Source: Ardenticatenaceae bacterium (GTDB taxonomy: Bacteria; Chloroflexota; Anaerolineae; Ardenticatenales; Ardenticatenaceae). From it: DNA of 64,000 nt. Numbering within the stretch: the stretch's first letter is position 1; every line of letters begins with the position of its first letter. The translations under genes and the position numbers were made by a program. Shown piece by piece: positions 26,289 to 33,818 of the stretch. Under the pieces are notes generated by a model that was not told the DNA's origin, did not search any database, and saw only the letters and a list, made by a program, of their open reading frames with translations. The stretch lies in NCBI GenBank assembly GCA_026989095.1, contig JALSKA010000075.1, positions 1 to 64,000 on the forward strand, given 5' to 3'.

Positions 26289-29200
26289 TCACGTCTCATG
26301 GGGCCTGGGGGCCACCTTCACGAAGTGGTGTTGAGCCGTCTCCCACGTGCTGAGCAGGATGCGCCCCAGCCTGCTTCCCGTCTCGACCACGTGCCGCTCG
26401 ATCAGGGAGCGAACGCGCTCAACGTCCGCCTCGGCGAGGGGCATGGGGTCCACAAACTCGCGGTTCAACACCGACGGCAGGCGGTTCTCGGGGTCGTACA
26501 GGTAGGCCACGCCGCCCGACATGCCGGCCGCGAAGTTGTAGCCCGTGGAACCGAGGATCACCACGACGCCTCCGGTCATGTACTCACACCCGTGGGCGCC
26601 GACGCCCTCAACCACTGCCGTGGCGCCGGAATTGCGCACGGCAAAGCGATCACCGGCGCGGCCGGCGGCGAAGAGTTCGCCGCCGGTGGCGCCGTACAGG
26701 GCCACGTTCCCCAGGATGGGCGCCTCGGCACGCCAACGGGCGTCTTCGGGGCGCATGAGCACAATGCGCCCGCCGGCCATGCCCTTGCCCACGTAGTCGT
26801 TGGCCACTCCCTCAAGCCGCAACGTCATGCCCGGCAAGATGAAGGCGCCGAAGCTCTGGCCGGCCGAGCCGATGAAGTGAAGCTGGACGGTGCCGTCGGG
26901 CAGGCCGGCGTCACCGTGGCGGCGGGCCAGCTCGCCTGAGAGGCCCGCACCCACCGTGCGGTCCACGTTGCGGATCAGATAGGTGCGGCGCACGCGCCCC
27001 ACTAAGGCCAAGTCACGCAGCGCGTCCCGCTTGACCCGCTCGTCGAGCGTGACCAGTCGGCGCCCCACCACGCGCCCCTCGAAGCGCCGCGGGCCCGGCA
27101 GGCGTGTGAGGAGCAGCCGCATGTCCACGTCGGCGGGAATGTCCGCGGGCACTTGGACCAACAGATCGCTGCGGCCAATCACCTCGTCGAGGGAGCGAAC
27201 TCCCAGTTGGGCCAACAGGTGGCGCAGGTCTTCGGCAATGTAGAGGAAGAAGGCCATGATGTGCTCGGGCTTGCCGGTGAACTTGGCCCGCAGCTCGGGC
27301 TTCTGGGTGGCGATGCCCACCGGGCACGTGTTCATGTGACACGCGCGGGCCATGACACACCCTTCGGCCACGAGGGCCGATGTGCCGAAGGAGAACTCGT
27401 CGGCGCCCAAGAGGGCGGCGATCAACACGTCACGAGCCGTGCGCAGGCCGCCGTCCACGCGCAGGCGCACCCGGTCGCGCAGGCCGTTGGCGATGAGGGT
27501 CTGCTGCGTTTCGGCTAATCCCAGCTCCCAAGGGACGCCGGCGTGTTTGATGCTGGTGATGGGCGAGGCGCCGGTGCCGCCGCTGTCGCCGCTGATGAGC
27601 ACCACATCGGCGCCGGCCTTGACCACGCCGGCCGCTATGGTGCCCACGCCGGCCTGTGCGACCAACTTGACGCTAATGGTGGCGTCCGGGTTGATGGTGC
27701 GCAGGTCGCTGATGAGCTGGGCCAAGTCCTCGATGCTGTAAATGTCGTGGTGCGGTGGCGGCGAGATGAGAGGCGTGCCCGGCTCCGTGTGGCGAATGGC
27801 CGCAATTTCGACGGTGACCTTGCGTCCCGGCAGGTGACCGCCCTCGCCCGGCTTGGAACCTTGGGCCATCTTGATCTGGAGTTCGCGGGCCGACATCAAG
27901 TAGGCCGGCGTGACCCCGAAGCGGCCGCTGGCCACCTGTTTGCAGGCGCTATTGCGCTCGGTGCCGAAGCGCCTGGGGTCCTCCCCTCCCTCGCCGCTGT
28001 TGCTCATGCCACCCAAGCGGTTCATGGCGATGGCCAGGGCCTCGTGGGCCTCGGCCGAGATGGAGCCAAAGGAGATGGCCGCCGTGGAAAAGCGGCGCAC
28101 AATGGCCTCGACCGGCTCGACCTCGTCCACCGAAATCGGTGCAGCGGGGGCCAACGCCAGGAAGTCGCGCGGCTCGGCCGGGGGGGCGTTGTCCACCAGG
28201 TCAGCGTACTGGCGATAGGCGGCAAAGCCCTCCTCAAAGTGGCCGTTGAGCACGCCCTCGATGCGCACCGCCCTCTGGAGCGCGCGCACCACGTGGGGGT
28301 TAAAGGCATGGTATTCTCCCTGCTTCTTGTACTTGAAGTAGCCGAACGAGGGGAGCTCGACCTTTCCGTTGGCCGCATCGAAGGCGTGACGATGCCACTC
28401 CAGCACCTCGCGCCCCAACACGTCGTAGCCCACGCCGCCGATGCGGGAGGGAGTGCCGGCAAAGCATTCGTCGATCACCTGTTGGTTCAAGCCAATGGCC
28501 TCGAAGATCTGGGCTCCGCAGTAGCTTTCGGCCGTGGCAATGCCCATCTTGGTCATAATTTTGAGCAGGCCCTTCTCGGCTGCGCGGAGGTAGTTGCGCA
28601 CAGCTTCCTCTGGCGAGAGCCGCCTTCCGCGGTATCCCTCGGTGCCGATGTGAACGGCCGTCTCCAAGGCCAGCCAAGGACAGACGGCGTTGGCCCCGTA
28701 GCCGATGAGCGTGGCAAGCTGGTGTGGATCCCTGGGTTCTCCCGTGTAGGCCACGATGGAACAGCGGGCCCGCAGCCCCTGGCGCAGCAGGTGGTGGTGA
28801 ACGGCGCCCACGGCCATCAGCGAGGGAATGGGTGCCCGTTCGGGGCTCACGCCGCTGTCGTCCAGGATGAGGAGCGTGGCACCCTCCCGGACCGCGTTGG
28901 CCGCCTCCTCCCGCAGGGCGTGAACGGCGCGCTCCAGCCCCGCCGGCCCTTCGGCCGCCGGAAACGTGGTGTCCAGCCGGCGGGCGCGGAAGCGGGCGTC
29001 GTCGGCGCCCAACGCTTCCACTTCCCGGAGCTGGGCTTCGGTGATGAAGGGGCTCTCCAACACAAGCCGGCCCGACACGTCGGGGGCGCTGTCCAAGAGG
29101 GGCACCATGGCGCCCAAGTGGACGCGCAGGGAGAGCACACTTCGCTCACGGATGGGGTCGATGGGCGGGTTGGTGACTTCGGCGAAACGCTGTTTGAAGT

Positions 29201-30728
29201 AGTGGAAGAGCGGCCGAGGCAGGCGGCTGAAGACGGCGTGGGGGGTGTCGTCGCCCATCGAGCCGATGGGCTCCTTGGCATCCCACACCATCGGCTTCAT
29301 CAGAACCTGAATTTCCTCCGACGTGTAGCCAAAGGCGATCTGCTGCGTCTGCAGGGCGCGGGTTTCCAGGCGAGGCGCCGTCGTGGCAGTGATCGGCGTT
29401 TGCAAGCGGCGCAGTCGCCCGACCATGATCGTGTAGGGCTTCTGGCGGGCAAAGCGGCGCTTCAGCTCGCCGTTGTGTTCGATGTACCCTTCGACCACGT
29501 CGGCGGCGATCATCTCGCCGGCCCCCACGCGGCCGTGCTCCACCACGTCGGCTGGGTCGAGCTCCGCGGCACCGGCCTCACTGGCCACCACCAGGAGCCC
29601 ATCGCCGGTGATGTCATAGCGCAGGGGGCGCAGGCCGTTGCGGTCCAAGCGCGCTCCGGCCACCCGCCCGTCGGTGAAGCAGACGCCGGCAGGACCGTCC
29701 CACGGCTCGATCAGCGCTTCGTGGTAGGCGTAGAAGGCCTTGATCTCCTCGTCCAAGTCGGGGTGGTGATCCCAAGCGTCGGAGAAGAGCATGAGCAACA
29801 CGTGGCGGATGTCCCGGCCGGCGTGGACCAACATCTCCACTGTGTTGTCCACCATAGCGGAGTCGCTGCCCCGCTCGTCAATCACCGGGCAGAGCTCGGG
29901 CGGCAAGTCCACTTCGCGGGCGCGCATCCAGTTGACGTTGCCCTGGAGCGTGTTGATCTCCCCGTTGTGGCACACCATGCGGAACGGCTGAGCACGGGCC
30001 CACGAGGGAAAGGTGTTGGTGCTGAAGCGCGTGTGGACCACGGCCACAGCGCTCCGGCAGGCCGGGTCCTGCAAGTCGAGGTAGAAGCGGTCCACGTGGG
30101 CCGGCTGGAGCATGCCCTTGTAGACAATGGTGCGGCTGGAGAAGGAGGCGATGTAGGCGTCCTCCACCTCTGCCTCCCGGAGCGCCCGTTCCGCATCCTT
30201 GCGTGCCAGGTAGCACGTTCGCTCGAAGGTGCGGGCGCCCATGCGCTTGGGCCGGGCCACGATTAACTGCCAGATGGCCGGCCGGCTCCGGCGCGCGGCT
30301 TGGCCCAACACGGACTCATCGACGGGCACCTCGCGCCATCCGAGCACGATGAGCCCCCGGCGTTCGGCGGCCGCCTGAATGACGGCCTGAGCTTCCTCCA
30401 CGGCCGAGATGGGCAGGAAGCACTGGGCCACGGCCACCGCGCCCGGGACGGCCTCGTGGCCACGGTCGCGAATGAAGGGGGCCAGCACGTCGAGGGGAAG
30501 GTGCAACAAGATGCCGGCCCCATCCCCCGTTACGCCGTCGGCGGCCACAGCGCCGCGATGGGTCATGTTCACCAGCGCCCGCAGGGCGCGCTCCACCAAC
30601 TCGTGGGAGGCTTCTCCGGTCGTTTGGGCCAACACGGCGATGCCACACGCATCGTGCTCGAAGCGGGGATCGTAGAGCGTCTGTGCCACGATGTGGTCCG
30701 GCGTGAGTGAGACGTGATGTGTGTTCAT
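26289..30728 (-). CDS. gltB: Glutamate synthase large subunit
   Basis: Transfers the amide nitrogen of glutamine to 2-oxoglutarate. 1,479 residues, the normal size. Domains in order: class II glutamine amidotransferase beginning at Cys28 (DACGIAV), which implies removal of a 27-residue propeptide; the central domain; the FMN-binding synthase barrel (GGMSNSGEGGEDPRR, SGDSGGTGASP, the Cys cluster in CHMNTCPVGIATQ); and the C-terminal GXGXG beta helix (GGELFAAGRAGDRF). No gltD small subunit lies nearby, so the electron-transfer partner is elsewhere or the enzyme uses ferredoxin. It has its own promoter and terminator. Confidence 0.95.
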   Translation of the reverse strand: MNTHHVSLTPDHIVAQTLYDPRFEHDACGIAVLAQTTGEASHELVERALRALVNMTHRGAVAADGVTGDGAGILLHLPLDVLAPFIRDRGHEAVPGAVAVAQCFLPISAVEEAQAVIQAAAERRGLIVLGWREVPVDESVLGQAARRSRPAIWQLIVARPKRMGARTFERTCYLARKDAERALREAEVEDAYIASFSSRTIVYKGMLQPAHVDRFYLDLQDPACRSAVAVVHTRFSTNTFPSWARAQPFRMVCHNGEINTLQGNVNWMRAREVDLPPELCPVIDERGSDSAMVDNTVEMLVHAGRDIRHVLLMLFSDAWDHHPDLDEEIKAFYAYHEALIEPWDGPAGVCFTDGRVAGARLDRNGLRPLRYDITGDGLLVVASEAGAAELDPADVVEHGRVGAGEMIAADVVEGYIEHNGELKRRFARQKPYTIMVGRLRRLQTPITATTAPRLETRALQTQQIAFGYTSEEIQVLMKPMVWDAKEPIGSMGDDTPHAVFSRLPRPLFHYFKQRFAEVTNPPIDPIRERSVLSLRVHLGAMVPLLDSAPDVSGRLVLESPFITEAQLREVEALGADDARFRARRLDTTFPAAEGPAGLERAVHALREEAANAVREGATLLILDDSGVSPERAPIPSLMAVGAVHHHLLRQGLRARCSIVAYTGEPRDPHQLATLIGYGANAVCPWLALETAVHIGTEGYRGRRLSPEEAVRNYLRAAEKGLLKIMTKMGIATAESYCGAQIFEAIGLNQQVIDECFAGTPSRIGGVGYDVLGREVLEWHRHAFDAANGKVELPSFGYFKYKKQGEYHAFNPHVVRALQRAVRIEGVLNGHFEEGFAAYRQYADLVDNAPPAEPRDFLALAPAAPISVDEVEPVEAIVRRFSTAAISFGSISAEAHEALAIAMNRLGGMSNSGEGGEDPRRFGTERNSACKQVASGRFGVTPAYLMSARELQIKMAQGSKPGEGGHLPGRKVTVEIAAIRHTEPGTPLISPPPHHDIYSIEDLAQLISDLRTINPDATISVKLVAQAGVGTIAAGVVKAGADVVLISGDSGGTGASPITSIKHAGVPWELGLAETQQTLIANGLRDRVRLRVDGGLRTARDVLIAALLGADEFSFGTSALVAEGCVMARACHMNTCPVGIATQKPELRAKFTGKPEHIMAFFLYIAEDLRHLLAQLGVRSLDEVIGRSDLLVQVPADIPADVDMRLLLTRLPGPRRFEGRVVGRRLVTLDERVKRDALRDLALVGRVRRTYLIRNVDRTVGAGLSGELARRHGDAGLPDGTVQLHFIGSAGQSFGAFILPGMTLRLEGVANDYVGKGMAGGRIVLMRPEDARWRAEAPILGNVALYGATGGELFAAGRAGDRFAVRNSGATAVVEGVGAHGCEYMTGGVVVILGSTGYNFAAGMSGGVAYLYDPENRLPSVLNREFVDPMPLAEADVERVRSLIERHVVETGSRLGRILLSTWETAQHHFVKVAPRPHET

Positions 30729-30781
30729 GGTCTGCCCCTCCTTGTAGCCGCTCGAACAGCGGGCGGCGAATGCCCACTTCC

Positions 30782-30810
30782 AGTATACGCCGGGCAGACG
30801 AGCCTGTCAG
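30782..30810 (-). promoter_or_regulatory. Sigma-70 promoter of gltB
   Basis: On the minus strand CTGACA (30810-30805), 17-bp spacer, TATACT (30787-30782). Five of six consensus bases match in each box. The leader is about 47 bases and ends with AAGGAGGGG before the gltB ATG. Confidence 0.75.
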
Positions 30811-30985
30811 CACACGGCCGGACCGTTCAGGCGGGTGAAAAAGGGTTCCCCCAGGTGTTCTCAGGGGCACACATGGGTACCCTACGGCCACACACATGGC
30901 CCAATCAGGCCCCTGTGCTCCCGAAGTGCGGCCAGAAGTCGTCTTCGGATCGAACAGGGCGTGATGAGGGGAAACTTGACGCCAT
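30811..30985. other. Divergent intergenic segment, unassigned
   Basis: Between the gltB promoter and the candidate RNA promoter. It contains only short inverted repeats and a TTGACG (30976-30981) with no properly spaced -10. A long plus-strand open frame crosses it, but with Cys/Ser/Arg-rich composition, no ribosome site and overlap with the RNA structures downstream, so it is not called. Confidence 0.4.
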
Positions 30986-31013
30986 TTGCTGCTGCACTGC
31001 ACAGGGTTACAAT
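30986..31013 (+). promoter_or_regulatory. Possible promoter of the structured RNA
   Basis: TACAAT (31008-31013) is a good -10 box. A weak -35, TTGCTG (30986-30991), lies 16 bases upstream. The predicted start is near 31020, just before the paired regions of the candidate RNA. Confidence 0.45.
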
Positions 31014-31019
31014 GGAATC

Positions 31020-31243
31020 GGCGTTCCCCTGCTGTGTTGGTGACATGCCGGGCGCGTTGAGCCAACACTCACTCAATGGGCGCCGGTTTCCGGCATGGTA
31101 CCGCAAGCGGCCAGCCATGTTGGCCGGGCGGGTGCCAGGGAGGTGCCCACGTGTTCCGAAGAGGCTCACACACGCAACCGGCATCCACGGCCCAGTGGAG
31201 GCGCCCAGGAAGCCATCGGTGTATGCCACCGATGGCTTTTCTT
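31020..31243 (+). ncRNA. Candidate structured RNA with possible pseudoknot and intrinsic terminator
   Basis: A non-coding stretch of about 224 bases ending in a terminator. Helices seen: CATGCCGG (31044-31051) with CCGGCATG (31090-31097); inside it GCGC and GTTGAG (31052-31061) with CTCAAT and GCGC (31072-31083); GGCCA/TGGCC (31109-31125); TCCAC/GTGGA (31184-31199). The apical loop sequence CCAACAC (31062-31068) is exactly complementary to GTGTTGG (31034-31040) upstream, giving a possible pseudoknot. A second CCGGCAT (31178-31184) could compete for the first helix. No consensus of RNase P, tmRNA, SRP, T-box or common riboswitches was recognised. The 5' end is uncertain. Confidence 0.55.
31210..31243 (+). 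terminator. Intrinsic terminator ending the candidate RNA
   Basis: A perfect 12-bp stem (31210-31221 with 31227-31238) with loop TATGC, followed by TTCTT. It points along the plus strand, while the nearest upstream gene is transcribed away from it and the next plus-strand gene has its own promoter 180 bp downstream. It therefore terminates something initiated inside this intergenic region. Confidence 0.85.
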
Positions 31244-31422
31244 GGGTATCAATCCGCAGAAATTGTTCCTCCTTGGACTGTCAGACTTCGTGCGCTTCCC
31301 ACCATGCCGGCCAACGAAGCGGTCCGGGTGTCAGGCGTGCTTCGCGGCTGCCGGATGTAGTCTTGTGTGAGGAAAGGGTGGAAACTCTCTCTCACCTGTG
31401 GGGAAAGGGAAGCACAGGGAAG

Positions 31423-31451
31423 TTGACATCCACGGGTGAGGGTGTTATCCT
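31423..31451 (+). promoter_or_regulatory. Sigma-70 promoter of the metallo-hydrolase gene
   Basis: TTGACA (31423-31428), 17-bp spacer, TATCCT (31446-31451) with an extended -10 TG at 31443-31444. The start near 31458 gives a short leader of under 60 bases. The segment between the RNA terminator and this promoter (31,244-31,422) holds further inverted repeats but no recognisable gene. Confidence 0.8.
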
Positions 31452-31515
31452 CCACACAGACTTACAGCTCGCGGCTTCCCGTGTACACTAAAATCGAACC
31501 GGGCCCCGGAAGATC

Positions 31516-32373
31516 ATGCGACGCGAACGAATTTCGGAAGATATCCACATCTTCACCAGCGAGCTGTACGCCCACGTCACGGCCACAGTGATCTTCACCG
31601 ACGAAGGCGCCATCGTCATTGACACACTCCCCTTCCCCGAGGAAAGCCGGACGATGGCCGAGTTCGTCTACAGCCACAGCCGGCGAGGTGTGCGCTTCGT
31701 GATCAACACCCACTTCCACGCCGACCACGTCTACGGCAACTACCTCTTCCGGGACGCAGTGATCATCGCCCACCGCCGGTGCCGCCAAAAGCTGCTCGAG
31801 ATCGGGGAGCGCTCCCTCCAAGCGGCGAAGGAGGAGACGCCCGCACTGGCCGAGGTTGAGCTAGTTATCCCCAATATTGTGTTCGACCACGAGATGGGGC
31901 TGCGCTTGGGACATCGGCTCCTGCGGCTGATCCACCTGCCGGGCCACACGGAGGACGGCATCGGGGTGTTGGTGGAAGGCGACCGCATCCTCGTCTCCGG
32001 CGATGCCGTTATGCCTCTGCCCTACTTCGCCTGGGGGGACCGCCTGCAGCTCCGCCACACGTTGCAGCGGATTCGGGAGATGAACTTGGAGAGCATTATT
32101 CAAGGGCACGGGGACGTGCTGCTGCGGGGCGAAATTCCCGAGGTGCTCGACCGCCACATCCATTACTTGGACTGCATCAAAGAGTACGTGGCCGAGCTCG
32201 TTGACCAAGGTCAACCGCGCACGGCGCTGAAGCACTCCATCCCCGAGTCCTGTGGCGAGAGCAGCATCCCCTTGGACGGGCTCGTGCGCCAGCTCCACTA
32301 CGCCAACCTGCTGCGCCTCTACGAGGACATGACCGACAAGGGGTCCATCGAGGCCATCTTGGCGTCGGCGTAG
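31516..32373 (+). CDS. Metallo-beta-lactamase-fold hydrolase
   Basis: 285 residues, with the binuclear zinc motif HFHADH (66-71), the third-site LPGHTED, SGDAV and a late QGHGD. These are the five MBL motifs of glyoxalase II-like and related hydrolases. The C-terminal 70 residues are helical and carry no known extra domain. Substrates across the family range from thioesters to lactones and nucleic acids; none can be chosen here. It ends 25 bases from the convergent anti-sigma gene. There is no clear Shine-Dalgarno sequence, only CCCGGAAGATC before the ATG. Confidence 0.85.
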   Translation: MRRERISEDIHIFTSELYAHVTATVIFTDEGAIVIDTLPFPEESRTMAEFVYSHSRRGVRFVINTHFHADHVYGNYLFRDAVIIAHRRCRQKLLEIGERSLQAAKEETPALAEVELVIPNIVFDHEMGLRLGHRLLRLIHLPGHTEDGIGVLVEGDRILVSGDAVMPLPYFAWGDRLQLRHTLQRIREMNLESIIQGHGDVLLRGEIPEVLDRHIHYLDCIKEYVAELVDQGQPRTALKHSIPESCGESSIPLDGLVRQLHYANLLRLYEDMTDKGSIEAILASA

Positions 32374-32398: not shown

Positions 32399-33172
32399 CT
32401 ACAGCCTTCCGTGAAGCACGCGCGGCCCTGTGGGGCCCGGACTGCCCGTTGCCGGCTCAACCGTCACGCCAACGCCCGCGTAGCGGTGCCACGGCGAGGG
32501 CGGTTCGACCCTGTGGAGGGTGAGCGTGCCCGCCGCTTCTACGCGGAAGACCCCGCCATTGTCCCGACGGCCATCAGGCCGAATGAGCCAAAGCTGGTAG
32601 GCCTGGTCCTGGGCCAAGGGAGAGAGCCCCTCGACGACGAGTACCCCGGTCCGGTCGTCGAGGTAGTAGAGCACGGCGCGGACCTCGCGCGCCGGGCCAT
32701 CAGGCTCGAGTGTGACCGCCCTGGCCCCTGGCGTGAGGAGCAGGCGCACCAAATCCTGTTGGGCGCTCATCTGGGCCCGAAGGGCCCGCTGTTGGCCGAG
32801 CAGGGCCACGTGCCATCCCCCCACGATCATGAGGGCCAGCGTGGCGGCCACGGCCCACGCCCAGAGCCAGCGCGGTGCGACCGGCCGACGCCGTTGGGCC
32901 GGCCCCGCCGTCTCCGGAATGGCGGCCACCCGCCGGCGCACCCTGTCCGGGGCCCGCACGAGGGGCACTTGGTAGAGCAGTACCTCGACAACGGGCTCAT
33001 ACCGGCGGAGTTCGGCGCGGCACTGCTCACACAGGCTCACGTGGAACTTCACACGGCGAGCCTCCTCCTCGGGCAGAGCCCCGAGGGCCAGCAAGCCCAG
33101 GAGAGAGGCACACATCTCGCACGAGAGCGTCGTGTGTTCTTGTTGGCCTGTGGGGTTTCCCGAGATGTTCAT
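32399..33172 (-). CDS. Anti-sigma factor (zinc-binding, RskA-like C terminus)
   Basis: 257 residues from ATG 33172, preceded by AGAGAGGA. The N-terminal cytoplasmic anti-sigma domain has the H-x3-C-x2-C zinc motif (His44, Cys48, Cys51) and an extra CEMC pair (18-21). A single membrane helix lies at about 97-120. The extracytoplasmic part resembles RskA (AVLYYLDDRTGVLVVEGLSP, YQLWLIRPDG). It should hold the ECF sigma factor encoded just upstream until an envelope signal releases it. Confidence 0.87.
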   Translation of the reverse strand: MNISGNPTGQQEHTTLSCEMCASLLGLLALGALPEEEARRVKFHVSLCEQCRAELRRYEPVVEVLLYQVPLVRAPDRVRRRVAAIPETAGPAQRRRPVAPRWLWAWAVAATLALMIVGGWHVALLGQQRALRAQMSAQQDLVRLLLTPGARAVTLEPDGPAREVRAVLYYLDDRTGVLVVEGLSPLAQDQAYQLWLIRPDGRRDNGGVFRVEAAGTLTLHRVEPPSPWHRYAGVGVTVEPATGSPGPTGPRVLHGRL

Positions 33173-33224
33173 AGTCCTCTCTGTTTTCGACGGTGGCAAG
33201 GCCCTTTGTCGCTCCATATACGTT

Positions 33225-33818
33225 TCAAGTGGGGCCTTTGGATTGTTCTTCCCGCAAGGCGGCCTGGAGCTTCCTCATGCCGAGGCGAATGCGGCTCTTG
33301 ACCGTGCCCAAGGGCAGGCCCAGCATGGCGGCGATGTCCTGGTGGGTGAGGCCGTAGAAGAAGGCCAGCTCGATGCACCGGCGCTGTTCGGGCGGCAGAA
33401 TTTCCAGGCTGAGGTGAACGGTCTCGTCCCGTTCGGCGTACCAGTGGGCCGCGAGGGCGTGGTCATCCCGACGCTCATCGAAGGCGTCGGCCGCGATCCG
33501 CTGACGATTTTGCTGGCGCAACACGTCTATGGCACGGTTCCGCGTGATGGAGAGCAACCACGTGGCCAGACGGCCCCGCGAGGCGTCGAACTGGTTGGCC
33601 CGCTGCCAGATGCGCAGGAAGACATCCTGGACAATGTCCTCGGCCGCGGCCGGGTCCTGCACCACTTTGAGGGCCATCGAGTAGACCAGGTCCACGTACC
33701 GCTCGTACAGGTCGTGAAAGGCGGCACGGTCTCCGGCCGCGATGCGGCGCATGAGGAGTCGGTCGTCTAGCACGTCGGTTCGAGCCATGCTGCTGCCCGC
33801 CTGTTGGGTTTCGCTCAT
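33225..33818 (-). CDS. ECF-family RNA polymerase sigma factor
   Basis: 197 residues. Region 2 ([47 protein letters not shown]) and region 4 ([20 protein letters not shown], then the helix-turn-helix [19 protein letters not shown]) are complete. The layout matches SigK-type ECF factors paired with RskA anti-sigmas, and the partner follows 52 bases later. The ATG at 33818 overlaps the last four bases of pheA (ATGA), so its translation is linked to prephenate dehydratase. An ATG at 33788 is an alternative. Confidence 0.92.

Follow-up and report, generated by a model that had tools for sequence, protein, structure and literature searches.

Between the start of gltB and the next plus-strand gene, the window (the whole 64,000-nt stretch of DNA analyzed here) contains a region of 787 bp (30729-31515) without genes, and the question raised by this locus is which RNA it encodes. 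The first-pass annotation had put the gap at about 790 bp, in agreement with our count, and had seen in it a plus-strand terminator hairpin, which is indeed present at 31211-31243, preceded by a structured RNA of no known class. An Rfam scan of the window at gathering thresholds gave no match, a result which, taken alone, would wrongly support an undescribed RNA. In a sensitive scan of the gap we observed a full-length match to RF00013 (6S RNA) at 31023-31205 on the plus strand (model positions 1-187 of 187, 40.2 bits, E=1.4e-6). The default scan is silent because this score lies just under the gathering score of the family (46.4 bits). Apart from RF00013, no bacterial RNA family matched the window RNA in the sensitive scan with E up to 10; most of the next-ranked matches were to animal microRNA families, far under their own cut-offs, and were rejected. 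The claim that no known class applies therefore fails, 6S RNA being the refuting outcome that the annotation itself had named.

The family assignment is supported by the relatives of the organism. G002, a sister species, has an ortholog that reaches 48.7 bits against RF00013, above the gathering score, and the family was matched in 70 of 80 relatives, in 63 of them over the cut-off. A clade-built model, R1, which covers 31020-31207 and had the window sequence in its training set, found homologs in most genomes of the class (198 of 249). Taken together, the window RNA is almost certainly the 6S RNA of this organism, with a predicted transcript of ~190 nt plus terminator and a rod whose central bubble resembles an open promoter. 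We call it copy A and define the following features of its gene:

31020-31207, plus strand: 6S RNA copy A, positional ortholog of the single 6S RNA of the class (RF00013 match, model R1, covariation)
30985-31013, plus strand: predicted 6S promoter with a weak TTTGC -35-like element and a TACAAT -10 element at 31008-31013 (conservation)
about 31211-31243, plus strand: predicted intrinsic terminator of the 6S gene, AAGCCATCGGTG-TATGC-CACCGATGGCTTTTCTT (sequence)

In 38 of 42 homologs TANNNT stands where a -10 element is expected, compared to 8% of random positions, and it is usually accompanied by a TTGC-type -35 element; by eye, TTTGC and CTTGC are common across the class. Transcription of copy A would start near 31020. 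In five A copies the terminator stem is maintained, a compensatory change having replaced T-A by C-G in G004 and G005. At the sequence level the conserved -10 element and the terminator indicate that copy A is an independent transcription unit; the first-pass proposal of a separate structured RNA that ends at its own terminator is borne out, and a promoter can be added to it.

Next, we considered the fold. The energy of 31010-31243 on the plus strand is -117 kcal/mol compared to a shuffle mean of -98 kcal/mol (z -3.7, reached by 0 of 200 shuffles), and the minus strand of the same region folds almost equally well (z -3.3). Since both strands give a significant fold energy, strand and identity have to be decided on other grounds; a minus-strand RNA was rejected, as it is the plus strand that carries the RF00013 match, the promoter and the terminator. 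The parts of the rod are as follows:

31020-31042, plus strand: 5' strand of the closing stem, paired with about 31184-31205, contains GTGTTGG
31062-31081, plus strand: 5' side of the central bubble, contains CCAACAC
31078-31149, plus strand: apical arm of the 6S rod (helices 5-8), its base GGGCGCC paired with GGTGCCC
31179-31185, plus strand: CCGGCAT, predicted in copy A as the 3'-side partner of ATGCCGG (31045-31051)

In an alignment of 42 model-aligned homologs (40 distinct), for which the guiding structure itself came from this family, 88.5% of the base-pair cells of the 45-pair rod are paired among the distinct sequences, compared to 42-49% with the partners slid, and 31 of the 45 pairs are changed on both sides. 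Of 500 shuffles, not one reached the observed value on any of five measures, nor did any slid control. The closing stem (helix 1) has 91.5% of its cells paired and 9 of 17 pairs changed on both sides. With MAFFT, the alignment of 12 close relatives still gave both-sides changes in 26 of 45 pairs. The check for covariation in relatives that had been suggested for this RNA thus came out positive, and the rod is kept.

Within this rod two more specific structural claims of the first-pass annotation have to be weighed, as they belong to a rival reading: the RNA would represent a new class, built around an H-type pseudoknot and a helix that switches, and would work either as a separate sRNA or by regulating gltB or the downstream gene in cis. 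The complementary words are truly present (GTGTTGG at 31034-31040 and CCAACAC at 31062-31068 match exactly) and the fold energy is significant; however, the full-length 6S homology already speaks against a new class, and the pseudoknot partner is not conserved whereas the 6S pairs are. Among 12 homologs the pseudoknot helix showed no excess over shuffles, the pair at columns 20-48 being broken in 9 of them; all seven pairs are kept only in G000 and G001, and G002 lacks one outer pair. The conservation of CCAACAC is explained by its place in the central bubble of the 6S RNA, where the pRNA start site lies. Inverted 7-mer pairs no more than 60 nt apart are frequent in the gap (14 compared to 3.7 expected), but these include the 6S stems and the terminator and are therefore no specific evidence for a pseudoknot. 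The proposed switch, in which a second CCGGCAT would compete for the ATGCCGG/CCGGCAT helix, fares similarly: the words exist, but the competing copy at 31092-31098 is not conserved, its sequence being absent in G001, G004 and G005, and we rejected it. At the position of the ATGCCGG/CCGGCAT helix itself a pairing is possible in G004 and G005 (GCTGG/CCAGC and GCCGG/CCGGC), and it is plausible that in copy A this helix extends the closing arm. As, in addition, gltB is not the neighbor outside the genus, we regard a new class as extremely improbable.

For the 6S RNA the site of pRNA synthesis can be predicted:

31053-31066, plus strand: predicted pRNA template of copy A, start opposite C31066, predicted pRNA 5'-GUUGGCUCAACGCG

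Characterized 6S RNAs have GG at pRNA positions 4/5 and an adenine beside the start (PMC8414754). These hallmarks (template start C, flanking A, GG at positions 4/5) were found in all 42 homologs. The predicted pRNA starts with GUUGGC in 30 of 30 sampled 6S RNAs from other families of the class, and also in G006 from the same order; in 28 of the 30 it reads GUUGGCUCAA, so that copy A, for which 5'-GUUGGCUCAA is predicted as well, would have its pRNA in common with almost every single-copy 6S RNA sampled from the class. Predicted sequences for the expected pRNAs of 12-15 nt are GUUGGCUCAACG for copy A and GUAGGGUCUGGG for copy B, the second 6S copy of this genome. In the window genus the closing-stem strand carries GTTGG (31036-31040); the predicted pRNA opens with these five bases too, and GTTGG is able to pair with the pRNA template, possibly by chance.

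6S RNA sequesters the housekeeping RNA polymerase, which is released after pRNA synthesis (PMC12005410, PMC8876501). By analogy to E. coli and Bacillus, copy A would bind the housekeeping sigma-RNA polymerase holoenzyme and keep promoters unoccupied under low nutrients. When nucleotides are available again, the polymerase would start at C31066 within the bubble and make the short pRNA 5'-GUUGGCUCAACGCG; after that the 6S RNA would refold and the polymerase would be released. Transcription, polymerase binding and pRNA synthesis of copy A are thus what we infer from the characterized systems.

In its full-length match, its rod with central bubble, its 187-position core, its pRNA hallmarks and its own promoter and terminator copy A resembles 6S RNA (RF00013, SsrS), and by sequence comparison family membership, rod, promoter, terminator and conservation of the pRNA site are all established for it. 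It differs from the family in being diverged and GC-rich (68%) with a score just below the gathering score; copy A is, judged from its sequence, a diverged 6S RNA that is missed at the default cut-off. 6S RNAs are treated by Barrick et al. 2005 and Wehner et al. 2014, as cited in PMC8414754. The Ms1 RNA of actinobacteria is described in PMC9130861 as 6S-like and as binding RNA polymerase; Ms1 binds the core enzyme, whereas the window RNA scores as RF00013.

In order to place the 6S gene in its surroundings we compared the flanking genes:

26289-30728, minus strand: gltB, glutamate synthase large subunit, divergent neighbor of the RNA, seen within the genus only
31516-32373, plus strand: metallo-beta-lactamase-fold hydrolase gene (PF00753, E=8e-21), conserved neighbor downstream of 6S RNA in the class

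When the loci of relatives were compared, gltB stood beside copy A in genus g1 only, so that the association with gltB proposed at first does not extend beyond the genus. The gltB of the window genome is 87% identical to that of Ardenticatenaceae isolate S141_12, to which the genome is near. For the metallo-beta-lactamase-fold gene none of the NCBIfam models reached its cut-off. On the same strand downstream of 6S RNA this gene is found in G001-G005 for copy A and, for other families of the class, at 16 of 30 loci (L008-L037), and we conclude from these comparisons that it, and not gltB, is the conserved neighbor. A search for the same link among the loci of a phylum survey gave one match, from the same class. 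In E. coli the 6S neighbor is ygfA, which differs from the neighbor of copy A. In lactic acid bacteria the neighbors are rarA and uspA (PMC8414754), again different. An ECF sigma factor gene (33225-33818, minus strand) followed by an RskA-type anti-sigma gene (32399-33217, minus strand) lies near the 6S locus. That the RNA is a long 5' leader of the downstream gene would fit the conserved same-strand position, but it is highly unlikely, as the terminator lies 3' of the RNA, the distance between RNA and gene ranges from 59 to about 1130 nt in class loci, no metallo-beta-lactamase-fold gene comes after the 6S RNA at the copy B loci, and the downstream gene is preceded by a promoter-like site of its own, the TTGACA-N17-TATCCT at 31423-31451 already pointed out in the first-pass annotation.

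Copy B of the window genome (G000 contig C67:23818-23998, minus strand; locus L118:5017-5202) lies near a UPF0182 membrane protein gene (PF03699) and is 47% identical to copy A. A second 6S RNA on a different contig was found in the window genome and in four of five family relatives searched (G001, G002, G004, G005), while G003 (83% complete) shows one copy only, beside the metallo-beta-lactamase-fold gene; a search for further copies with laxer filters gave at most two per genome. In the 6S tree the A copies stand apart from the B copies, which form a clade with 100% support on a long branch whose attachment point is weakly supported. The predicted pRNA of the B copies is GUAGGGUCUG; for copy B of the window genome it is GUAGGGUCUGGGCG, unlike the class-wide pRNA. 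Copy B is thus, by its sequence, a diverged 6S paralog with a different predicted pRNA template. Outside Ardenticatenaceae, among the class-survey genomes listed, two 6S matches occur in G054 and G118 only; these pairs (C210 and C288:9133-9311; C145 and C147) may be independent duplications or binning contamination.

With a second copy present and a score under the Rfam cut-off, copy A might be regarded as a degenerate, non-functional pseudogene whose role the second copy has taken over. We give this very little credence, since five species in two genera have maintained its promoter, terminator, pRNA template and paired stems, and of the two copies it is A that retains the class-wide pRNA template and the gene neighbor. 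Two 6S copies are known from Bacillus subtilis and some other Firmicutes (PMC8414754) and were reported for Hydrogenivirga (PMC4227106). B. subtilis 6S-1/6S-2 are likewise two paralogs in one genome, and the predicted start of copy A opposite C agrees with the 6S-1 start C40 (PMC8876501); unlike these, the present pair is from Ardenticatenaceae, is on separate contigs in the window genome and is 47% identical. It is possible, although we hold it only tentatively, that the two 6S RNAs are functionally distinct, with A (GUUGGCUCAA) serving the housekeeping holoenzyme and the fast-evolving B (GUAGGGUCUG) serving other conditions or another holoenzyme.

In our literature search we found no paper that treats 6S RNA together with Anaerolineae; as its scope did not take in Wehner et al. 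2014, the main survey of 6S RNA, we claim no priority. Copy A is an ordinary, important housekeeping RNA, and as 6S paralog pairs are already known from Bacillus and others, the novelty is mild: the second copy is conserved and differs in its predicted pRNA template, and the gene neighbor is kept at the level of the class. Both 6S copies of the genome score below the Rfam gathering score, so that a standard pipeline would report no 6S RNA here, an annotation gap which is now corrected for the window genome. Our findings document a 6S duplication which two or more genera of a single Chloroflexota family have in common and in which the predicted pRNA template has changed; the synteny of 6S RNA with a metallo-beta-lactamase-fold gene downstream, seen at the level of the class, could aid the discovery of 6S RNAs elsewhere.
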